In this document: positions 28,421 through 56,282 of the stretch, piece after piece
Layout: every line of letters begins with the position of its first letter
Position numbering within the stretch: the first letter of the stretch is position 1
From: Chitinophaga pinensis
GTDB lineage: Bacteria > Bacteroidota > Bacteroidia > Chitinophagales > CAMDFR01
Assembly (NCBI GenBank): GCA_945860705.1
Contig: CAMART010000011.1
Location: 1 to 64,000, forward strand
Length of the DNA stretch: 64,000 nt
Direction of reading: 5' to 3'
Position numbers and translations under genes: made by a program
Notes under the pieces: generated by a model
The model's input: only the letters and a program-made list of their open reading frames with translations
The model's database searches: none
What the model was told of the DNA's origin: nothing

Positions 28421-28993
28421 TTATGATACTTTTTCTACCTGAACGAAGTTTACCTCTACTGGTGTTCTTCTTCCAAATATTTTTACTATTACTTTTAATT
28501 TTTTCTTTTCTTCAAAAATTTCTTCAATGGTTCCTGAGAATTCATTGAATGGTCCATCTATTATTTTCACTGTTTCATTGATGATATATGGTTCTACGTT
28601 TACTTCTCCTGTTTCTGTTATTTCATCAAATTTTCCAAATAATTTTTGTACCTCACTATTTCTTAATGGCTCAGGTTTATTGTCTTTACCACCTAAGAAA
28701 TTCATAACATTTGGTAAGCTTCTCAGTTCTGCAACTATATCAGAGTTGAGTCCTGGGGGAGCAACTTCTATATATAAATATCCAGGAAAAAGTGTTTTTT
28801 CTTTTACTACTTTTTTACCTGCTTTAATTTGATATACTTTTTCAGTTGGGATAAGTACTTGAGTCACTACTTTGTCCATTCCTGAACGTTTCAACTCTAT
28901 ATCCATATGAGCCTTGATTTTATTCTCTTGGCCACTGAATACTTTTAGTACGTACCACTTACTTTCTTTCTTATTTTCCAATGTTATCATCAT
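28421..28993 (-). CDS. nusG: transcription termination/antitermination protein NusG
   Basis: KWYVLKVFSGQENKIK, KOW region GPFNEFSGTIEEI. Confidence 0.98.
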   Translation of the reverse strand: MMITLENKKESKWYVLKVFSGQENKIKAHMDIELKRSGMDKVVTQVLIPTEKVYQIKAGKKVVKEKTLFPGYLYIEVAPPGLNSDIVAELRSLPNVMNFLGGKDNKPEPLRNSEVQKLFGKFDEITETGEVNVEPYIINETVKIIDGPFNEFSGTIEEIFEEKKKLKVIVKIFGRRTPVEVNFVQVEKVS

Positions 28994-29225: not shown

Positions 29226-29276
29226 TTTTATTTTATATTTAATACACTTTCGTGTGTTTTATTTTACTTTATCTAG

Positions 29277-29347
29277 CACGGGTACTAGGATTCGAACCCA
29301 GATCAAAGGTTTTGGAGACCCGTATGCTACCATTGCACCATACCCGT
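29277..29347 (-). tRNA. tRNA-Trp (CCA)
   Basis: ACGGGUA-UG-GUGC-AAUGGUA-GCAU-A-CGGGU-CUCCAAA-ACCUU-UGAU-CUGGG-UUCGAAU-CCUAG-UACCCGU-G; anticodon CCA; 27-43 mismatch noted. Confidence 0.95.
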
Positions 29348-29395: not shown

Positions 29396-30583
29396 CTATT
29401 TAATGATTTCTGTAACTTGACCAGCACCTACTGTTCTACCACCCTCACGGATAGCGAAACGTAAACCTTTCTCTAACGCTACTGGGTAGATAAGTTTTAC
29501 TGAAAGTGTGATATTGTCACCTGGCATAACCATTTCAGTGTTTTCTGGAAGTGTAATTTCACCAGTAACATCTGTAGTTCTTAAATAGAACTGTGGTCTA
29601 TACTTATTGAAGAATGGAGTATGACGTCCACCTTCTTCTTTGCTCAATACGTAAACCTCACATTTGAATTCTGTATGTGGGTTACCAGTACCTGGTTTGC
29701 AGATAACTTGACCTCTTTTGATGTCAGTTTTCTCAACACCTCTTAAAAGGATACCAACGTTTTCACCAGCTTCACCAGTATCAAGGATTTTTCTAAACAT
29801 CTCTACCCCTGTACAAGTTGATTTCATTGGAGCTTCGTTAGAAAGACCTACGATTTCTACTGCATCACCTGTATTGATAACACCTCTCTCGATTCTACCT
29901 GTAGCTACAGTACCTCTACCTGTGATAGAGAATACATCTTCTACTGGCATCAAGAATGGAAGATCAACTGGTCTTGGTGGAACTGGAATCCAGCTATCCA
30001 CTGCGTCCATCAATTTCTCGATAGCAGCAACACCGTTTGGCTCACCATTCAAAGCTGCTAAAGCAGAACCTTGAATAACTGGAGAACTTTCTTCAAATCC
30101 GTAGAATTTCAAAAGATCTCTGATTTCCATTTCACCTAATTCTAAGAATTCAGGATCGTCAACTAAGTCAACTTTATTCATGAAAACTACGATTTTAGGC
30201 ACCCCTACTTGACGAGCTAAAAGTATATGCTCTCTAGTTTGTGGCATAGGACCATCAGTAGCAGCTACTACTAGGATAGCTCCATCCATTTGAGCTGCAC
30301 CTGTTACCATGTTTTTAATATAATCCGCGTGACCTGGACAATCTACGTGAGCGTAGTGTCTAGACGTTGTTTGATATTCTACGTGAGCTGTATTAATAGT
30401 AATACCTCTTTCTTTTTCTTCTGGAGCTGCATCGATAGAATCATAATCTTTTTTCTCTGCAAGACCTTTTCCTGCTAGTACGTTTGTGATTGCGGCAGTT
30501 AAAGTAGTTTTACCGTGATCTACGTGACCAATTGTACCAATGTTTACATGGGGCTTGGTTCTTTCAAATTTCTCTTTAGCCAT
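29396..30583 (-). CDS. tuf: elongation factor Tu
   Basis: [27 protein letters not shown]. Confidence 0.99.
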
Positions 30584-53753: not shown

Positions 53754-56282
53754 TTGAACTATACAATAAAAAAAATAAAAGAAATCATACAAGCAGATGC
53801 TGTAGCTATGCCTGATGAAGATTGCACTATCAAACATTTATTGATAGATAGTAGAAAAATTTTATTTCCAAAAGAAAGTGTGTTTTTTGCACTTCCAGGC
53901 TCTAGGCTAGATGGACATTCATTTATGGATGATGCCTATAAAAAAGGAGTACGCAATTTTATTGTATCAAAAAACATAGATTTTACAGATTACAAACGTG
54001 CCAATATATTGTGGGTAGAAAACACCAATAAAGCACTCCAAAAATTAGCCACTTTTCATAGAAAACAATTTCAATTTCCTATCATAGGTATAACAGGTAG
54101 CAATGGTAAAACTATAGTAAAAGAATGGCTCTATCAACTGCTACAAGAAGACTACAACATAGTGCGAAGTCCGAAAAGTTACAACTCTCAAATAGGTGTA
54201 CCATTGAGTATCTGGCAAATAGAATCAGACCATAATCTAGGTATTTTTGAAGCTGGTATCAGTGAGTCTGGCGAAATGGAAAAACTAGAAATGATGATAA
54301 AACCAAATATTGGAATCTTTACTAGTATAGGTGATGCACACAACGAAGGTTTTCTGAATATACAACATAAAATACGTGAAAAACTACGATTGTTTATCAA
54401 TAGCGAAATCATTATTTATTGTAAAGACTATCCAGATTTAAACCAGGCTGTAGCCAGCGTAGCTTCGCAACTCAATAGAGGTAATGGCGAAACAGAAACT
54501 CAAAAATTTAGAACCTTTACATGGAGTATCAGTACCGACGCAGATATACGAGTAGTGAAATACGAAAAAGATGAACGCAATACTACCATAGAAATAGACT
54601 ATAAAGACGAATCATATCGATATAAAATTCCATTTAATGATAAAGCCTCTGTAGAAAATTCTATTCATTGTATAGCTACAATGATTTATTTAAAAATTGA
54701 GCCTAAAAAAATTCAACAAAAAATTTTAGAGCTCACCGGTATTTCTATGCGACTTGAACTGAAAAACGGAATTAATAACTGCACTATTATCAATGATAGT
54801 TATAATTCTGATATCAATTCATTGAAAATAGCTATTGATTTTTTGATGCAACAAGGCAATAGAAAAAGAAAAACATTGATACTCTCTGATATACTTCAAA
54901 GTGGCAAGAATGAAATAGATTTATATAATGAAATAGCATCTATCATAGAACATAAAAAAATAAATAGAGTACTTGCAGTAGGCACCGCACTTAAAAGACA
55001 ACAAAAAAAACTAGAAGATATTGAAAATTTGGAAGTAGAATTTTTTGCATCTACTCAAGAGCTGATGAACGAAATAGAGCTGGAAACATTTAGAGACGAA
55101 GATATACTCATCAAAGGTGCTCGCCAATTTAAATTTGAACGTATCGGTAGAATGCTCGAACAGAAAGCACACGACACAGTGCTGGAAGTAAACTTAGCGG
55201 CAATAAAAAACAATCTAAAGAAATTTCAATCCTACCTGAAACCTGAAACAAAAATGATGGTAATGGTAAAAGCTTTTGCTTATGGTACTGGCTCATTTGA
55301 GATAGCAAACCTACTTCAGTTTAATAAAGTAGATTATCTGGGAGTAGCCTATACCGATGAAGGAGTAGAACTCCGCAAGGCTGGTATTACATTGCCCATC
55401 ATGGTAATGAATGCAGACAAAGTAAATTTTGAAAATATTATTAATTATGATTTAGAACCTGAAATATATAGCATCCATCAGCTTAAAGAATTTTTAAAAG
55501 TACAACGAAATCTAAACCTAGAAGGCAAGCCTGATTTGTATCCTATTCATATAGAATTAGAAACTGGAATGAATCGTTTGGGTTTTGATGAAGCAGATTT
55601 AAAAGCTCTTATCACAACTATCAAAGAAAGCGAACAAGTGAAAATAGTAAGTGTATTTTCGCATCTTGTAGCTAGTGAAGATGCTACTCTCAACGATTTC
55701 ACACAATCACAGATAGAAAAATTTGAGCGTATGTGTAGAATTATTTCAGAACAAATCAATTACCCATTTTTAAAACATATATTAAATAGTGCTGGAATCA
55801 TACATCATCCTCAAGCACATTTTGATATGGTGCGACTTGGATTGGGCATCTATGGTGTAGATGGAAGCAATACGATACAGAATGATTTAGAATCTGTAGG
55901 TACGCTGAAAACTACCATATCGCAAATAAAGAAAATAAACAAAGGCGATACCATCGGCTACGGACGAGTAGGCAAAGCAGACACCGACAAAACGATAGCC
56001 ACAGTGAGTATAGGATATGCAGATGGATACGATAGAAGATTTAGCAATGGCAGAGGAGTGATGAAAATAAATGGCAAACTAGCAAAGGTGATTGGCAATG
56101 TGTGTATGGATATGACTATGCTAGACATTACAGATATAGAGGACGTAAAAGAAGGCGATACAGCTATAATTTTTGATAAAGAAAAGCCTATACAAGAAGT
56201 ATGTAAATCTATAGATAAAATACCCTACGAAATGCTCACAAGTATTTCACCCAGAGTAAAAAGAATTTATTTTGATGAATAA
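53754..56282 (+). CDS. bifunctional UDP-MurNAc-tripeptide:D-Ala-D-Ala ligase/alanine racemase
   Basis: MurF half GITGSNGKTIVKEW; Alr half MVMVKAFAYGTGS, ELETGMNRLGF; TTG start. Confidence 0.95.
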   Translation: MNYTIKKIKEIIQADAVAMPDEDCTIKHLLIDSRKILFPKESVFFALPGSRLDGHSFMDDAYKKGVRNFIVSKNIDFTDYKRANILWVENTNKALQKLATFHRKQFQFPIIGITGSNGKTIVKEWLYQLLQEDYNIVRSPKSYNSQIGVPLSIWQIESDHNLGIFEAGISESGEMEKLEMMIKPNIGIFTSIGDAHNEGFLNIQHKIREKLRLFINSEIIIYCKDYPDLNQAVASVASQLNRGNGETETQKFRTFTWSISTDADIRVVKYEKDERNTTIEIDYKDESYRYKIPFNDKASVENSIHCIATMIYLKIEPKKIQQKILELTGISMRLELKNGINNCTIINDSYNSDINSLKIAIDFLMQQGNRKRKTLILSDILQSGKNEIDLYNEIASIIEHKKINRVLAVGTALKRQQKKLEDIENLEVEFFASTQELMNEIELETFRDEDILIKGARQFKFERIGRMLEQKAHDTVLEVNLAAIKNNLKKFQSYLKPETKMMVMVKAFAYGTGSFEIANLLQFNKVDYLGVAYTDEGVELRKAGITLPIMVMNADKVNFENIINYDLEPEIYSIHQLKEFLKVQRNLNLEGKPDLYPIHIELETGMNRLGFDEADLKALITTIKESEQVKIVSVFSHLVASEDATLNDFTQSQIEKFERMCRIISEQINYPFLKHILNSAGIIHHPQAHFDMVRLGLGIYGVDGSNTIQNDLESVGTLKTTISQIKKINKGDTIGYGRVGKADTDKTIATVSIGYADGYDRRFSNGRGVMKINGKLAKVIGNVCMDMTMLDITDIEDVKEGDTAIIFDKEKPIQEVCKSIDKIPYEMLTSISPRVKRIYFDE

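Follow-up and report, generated by a model that had tools for sequence, protein, structure and literature searches.

A tRNA-Trp(CCA) gene between tuf and nusG

The stretch of DNA that we analyzed (64,000 nucleotides, from here on the window) carries on its reverse strand a gene for tRNA-Trp(CCA), with the gene for EF-Tu directly upstream and nusG downstream. Table 1 gives the coordinates. ARAGORN places the tRNA at 29276-29347, and the Rfam match flags the uppermost pair of the anticodon stem as non-standard. In standard numbering, the stem CGGGU/ACCUU consists of C27 G28 G29 G30 U31 and A39 C40 C41 U42 U43, that is, Watson-Crick pairs at 29-41, 30-40 and 31-39, a G·U wobble at 28-42, and a C·U mismatch at 27-43, and the anticodon loop has 7 nt. 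Direct reading also gives a UGAU variable region and a U11-A24 pair. A preliminary description of this DNA had proposed the same stem and variable region, and ARAGORN, Rfam and direct reading all bear it out. It had also reported fully paired anticodon stems for the other four tRNAs in the window; none of them has a mismatch, though tRNA-Tyr carries a G27·U43 wobble. Of all 29 tRNAs detected in the genome, tRNA-Trp has the weakest anticodon stem and the only true mismatch, and some of the others have one or two wobbles.

Table 1. Coordinates in the window of the tRNA-Trp(CCA) gene, its neighbors, and the tRNA positions discussed in the text
Feature	Position	Strand	Evidence
tRNA-Trp(CCA), single tRNA-Trp detected in the genome	29277..29347	-	ARAGORN; Rfam RF00005, 60.2 bits
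Anticodon CCA, positions 34-36	29313..29315	-	ARAGORN and direct reading
C27 and G28, 5′ side of the weak anticodon-stem top	29322, 29321	-	Direct reading, Rfam alignment
U43 and U42, 3′ side (C27·U43 mismatch, G28·U42 wobble)	29306, 29307	-	Direct reading, Rfam alignment
G9, core position (A9 in G27·U43 relatives)	29339	-	Comparison with relatives
G12 of pair G12-C23 (U12-A23 in G27·U43 relatives)	29336	-	Comparison with relatives
C23 of pair G12-C23	29326	-	Comparison with relatives
tuf (EF-Tu), directly upstream of tRNA-Trp	29396..30583	-	Pfam GTP_EFTU domains, synteny
nusG, downstream of tRNA-Trp	28421..28993	-	Pfam NusG, synteny

The possibility of an additional tRNA-Trp, especially one with a TCA anticodon, had been raised in the preliminary description. 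The 29 genome tRNAs include neither a second tRNA-Trp nor any tRNA with a UCA anticodon, and a tRNA-Trp pattern search of the draft assembly gave one match. The genome is available as a draft of 46 contigs, in which we found no tRNA-Ala and no tRNA-Ile(GAU), so that a second tRNA-Trp in unassembled sequence is improbable but conceivable.

Across the order, tuf and nusG flank tRNA-Trp in most relatives, with either type of stem. A second tRNA-Trp does occur at L376 (G530:C2), within a phage- or plasmid-like array of about 14 different tRNA genes; the ordinary tRNA-Trp is present in that genome as well. At 53754-56282 on the forward strand, the window also encodes a fusion of a Mur ligase and an alanine racemase.

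Conservation and spread of the mismatch

All four genomes of the genus carry C27·U43. The tRNA-Trp sequence of G002 is identical to that of the window, and the two that differ, G001 and G003 (L010 and L011), have A-U instead of G-C at 29-41 while keeping both C27·U43 and G28·U42. Since these two pairs are kept, the mismatch cannot be put down to faulty sequencing or to decay of the gene, and the compensatory nature of the change at 29-41 indicates that the stem is under constraint.

What did the mismatch replace? In the majority of the order members that were sampled and gave a match, the pair is G27·U43, followed by A28-U42, C28-G42 or U28-A42, so a G·U wobble, and not a strong pair, gave way to the C·U mismatch. 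The U11-A24 pair and the UGAU variable region are also present in many G27·U43 relatives, and for that reason they cannot mark a special function. The preliminary description was right to call U11-A24 natural in other bacteria, as it is common to most close relatives.

The C27..U43 pattern matches 63 of 349 genomes of the order, of which about 60 are genuine and three are chance or variant hits, and the matches fall mostly in one family (f21). The stem is frequent in Chitinophagaceae and also in other groups. A pattern scan of named genomes found at least 117 stretches with C27·U43; carriers among the matches listed include Chitinophaga, Taibaiella, Edaphocola, Sediminibacterium, Lacibacter, Chryseobacterium, Kaistella, Clostridia and Acholeplasmatales, among others. 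Both states of 27-43 can be found within single genera, five of them in f21 (g90, g54, g64, g111, g124) and one in f9 (g26).

Relation to known tRNA-Trp(CCA) with a 4-bp anticodon stem

The tRNA belongs to a known class. Fakih et al. (2026, Nucleic Acids Res., PMC13092985) surveyed tRNA-Trp(CCA) in 42,109 genomes and found a 4-bp anticodon stem in 8.9% of the genes, across 34 phyla, and as the only form in 2,677 standard-code genomes. In 13 of 19 orders the carriers use UGA less, but none of those with the standard code has given it up. Over-expression of a C27A tRNA-Trp in E. coli increased UGA readthrough about 2.5-fold; C27A alone had been without effect when tested earlier in vitro. The same work ties a hinge that includes positions 9, 12 and 23 to readthrough.

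Our tRNA-Trp has the broken top pair, the other four pairs formed, the 7-nt loop and the CCA anticodon of this class, and, like many of its members, it is the sole tRNA-Trp of a standard-code genome; the tuf/secE/nusG neighborhood is also the one named in the Figure 3 legend of PMC13092985. It differs from the class by its additional G28·U42 wobble. Position 24 is an A and position 9 a G, and A24 places it within the large set-aside group (A9C/G24A) and not among the 757 "Blastocrithidia-like" genes, which are those without A9C and G24A (PMC13092985).

In the 4-bp tRNA-Trp(CCA) of Blastocrithidia nonstop and Condylostoma, the anticodon stem is likewise broken at its top by a C-U, but there UGA has been reassigned to Trp, whereas here UGA is a stop and RF2 is intact. 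The U11-A24 pair is shared with the Hirsh UGA suppressor of E. coli (tRNA-Trp G24A), in which A24 is a mutation in a U11-G24 background, whereas here A24 is native. Schultz and Yarus reportedly engineered 27-43 variants of E. coli tRNA-Trp suppressors in 1994, and a second paper of theirs is said to describe how 27-43 interacts with other tRNA mutations. The position altered is the same, engineered there and natural here. The preliminary description was correct on both this suppressor genetics (Schultz and Yarus 1994 is cited in PMC13092985) and the link to protists, since the Blastocrithidia tRNA-Trp has the same kind of C-U break.

A possible coupled switch at positions 9, 12-23 and 27-43

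In Bacteroidota, the mismatch mostly changes together with other positions. Over 48 genomes of the order, chiefly from families f9 and f21, C27 occurs with a residue other than A at position 23 in 18 of 18 cases (17 C, 1 G). With G27 or A27, the residue is A23 without exception (non-A23 in 0 of 30). The C27·U43 genomes in a sample of the phylum are likewise non-A23, and on the other side the sole exception to A23 is a second tRNA-Trp in a tRNA array. Counting distinct tRNAs, and ignoring kinship, the 12-23 pair is changed in 8/8 with C27·U43 vs. 1/34 of the others. Position 9 usually follows, as G9 with G12-C23 or as C9 with C12-G23 (Chryseobacterium), with A9 and G12-C23 in some. There are exceptions: among the matches listed for named genomes, L207, L188, L278 and several Clostridia have C27·U43 with U12-A23.

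Because positions 9, 12 and 23 lie in the hinge linked to readthrough (PMC13092985), structural compensation is a reasonable reading, and the joint switching in Bacteroidota suggests it. A stronger version, which we put forward tentatively and consider less probable than its opposite, is that the break at 27-43 in Bacteroidota is half of a coupled switch between G27·U43 with A9/U12-A23 and C27·U43 with G9, A9 or C9 and G12-C23 or C12-G23, that the switch arose in several families, and that the core change would set how much UGA the weakened tRNA reads. If so, the within-genus pairs would be natural material in which to measure how the tRNA hinge controls stop-codon readthrough. Since both states of the linked switch occur side by side within genera, nature itself provides a test of how the core tunes decoding accuracy.

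UGA is still a stop codon

In the window, 0 of 47 open reading frames (ORFs) end in TGA. In a 464-kb sample of the genome, on which our TGA counts for this genome rest, TGA ends 20 of 375 ORFs (5.3%), and given this sample the probability of 0/47 is about 0.05-0.08. The loss of TGA stops claimed in the preliminary description holds inside the window and fails genome-wide. Mirroring the local shortage of TGA, TAG ends 36% of the ORFs in the window vs. about 23% in the genome sample.

Release factor RF2 is present, at 482 bits and over the curated cut-off, with its SPF and GGQ motifs intact. Past the TGA that ends an ORF, the frame stays open for a median of 2 codons before the next in-frame stop, and therefore TGA-ended genes are not read on. 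UGA is used as a stop and RF2 is neither lost nor altered, which is the opposite of what characterizes UGA-to-Trp reassignment. In this genome, the tRNA-Trp leaves UGA in place as a stop codon.

The RF2 gene, at L059 (G000:C3:124259-125275), has no internal stop in its matched part, and the classic autoregulatory TGA frameshift site seems to be absent from it. Some members of the order (G005, G024, G037, G048) have an RF2 with one internal TGA.

Does the mismatch predict lower TGA use?

We compared TGA use between genomes using samples of about 11-460 kb per genome. The TGA share in C27·U43 carriers goes from 0 to 31% depending on the genome. Two of them, G269 and G343 (G+C 0.49-0.52), have the mismatch, yet 29-31% of their ORFs end in TGA; relatives of this sort, with the same mismatch and ordinary TGA stops, are what the preliminary description had itself named as refuting its proposal.

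In a logistic regression over 24 genomes, G+C content is a strong predictor of the TGA share (p = 3e-5), and the G+C-adjusted odds ratio of TGA for C27·U43 is 0.66 (95% 0.43-1.01, p = 0.056). The Mantel-Haenszel odds ratio over the five f21 genera in which the two states coexist is 0.88 (p = 0.6). Mixed genera go both ways: in g90, TGA ends 25.8% of ORFs in C27·U43 genomes vs. 15.7% in the others, and in g54 the values are 10.0% vs. 30.5%, with a large difference in G+C too. Lower TGA use by carriers had been suggested by the first five genomes, and it weakened to these two odds ratios once G+C was included and once genera were compared within themselves. A real but small lowering is possible, in view of the adjusted ratio and of the survey, in which UGA is used less in 13 of 19 orders (PMC13092985).

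An excess of backup stops after TGA appeared in G000 (p = 0.006) and G003 (p = 0.019), and also in a G27·U43 genome, G011 (p = 0.03), and we rejected it as a signature. With the ATGA overlaps removed and the genomes pooled, C27·U43 genomes have no such excess.

The preliminary description had suggested that the tRNA could raise UGA readthrough and in this way account for the missing TGA stops; on this view, the weak stem makes it read UGA appreciably, and selection has depleted TGA stops in the genome. The readthrough produced by the over-expressed C27A tRNA, simulations in which C:U is among the more flexible breaks, the survey by orders and the adjusted odds ratio would all fit with it. We find it unlikely, given carriers with almost a third of their stops TGA, the opposite direction of g90, a within-genus ratio close to one and no backup-stop excess; there is no support for the tRNA as the cause of a TGA loss in a genome that uses TGA throughout and has an intact RF2, with TGA frequency following G+C.

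It is very improbable that the lineage is starting to reassign UGA to Trp, or once did so, and that the mismatch belongs to such a process: the break resembles the one in Blastocrithidia, and a few bacteria that have only a 4-bp tRNA-Trp(CCA) did reassign UGA, but RF2 and the short open frames after TGA speak against it here, as do the TGA stops kept by carriers in many genera. And a defective or duplicate copy under relaxed constraint, for which one could quote that no other tRNA detected has a true mismatch, is ruled out, barring a second tRNA-Trp in unassembled sequence, for a gene that is the only tRNA-Trp found, is unchanged in G002, shows a compensatory 29-41 change in G001 and G003, and keeps its place between tuf and nusG across the order.

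Probably a normal tRNA-Trp, with a weak anticodon stem

From the observed sequence, conservation, synteny, RF2 and ongoing use of TGA stops, we consider it probable that we are dealing with the normal tRNA-Trp(CCA) of a standard-code member of Chitinophagales, which is essential and the only one detected, that C27·U43 is a lineage-fixed variant, and that TGA is rare mainly because of low G+C. The tRNA would read UGG. Its C27·U43 would derive from the G27·U43 wobble of most relatives, in a switch accompanied by the changes at 9 and 12-23. The looser top of the stem may slightly raise near-cognate reading of UGA; RF2 would win the competition for that codon, and the altered core would keep the tRNA functional. 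The contribution of the tRNA to the low TGA use would be small at most. By analogy, a modest tendency of this tRNA-Trp toward UGA readthrough is plausible, because a 4-bp stem gave about 2.5-fold in the E. coli over-expression.

Taken on its own, the mismatch is natural variation of an ordinary kind in an essential tRNA. It also warns against quick conclusions: a genome whose sole tRNA-Trp has 27-43 unpaired can use UGA normally as a stop, in up to about 30% of the genes in relatives.

Another kind of weakened anticodon stem is present in family f17 of the same order, where the tRNA-Trp at L012, L013, L014 and L016 has an internal U28·U42 mismatch beneath a G27-C43 pair.
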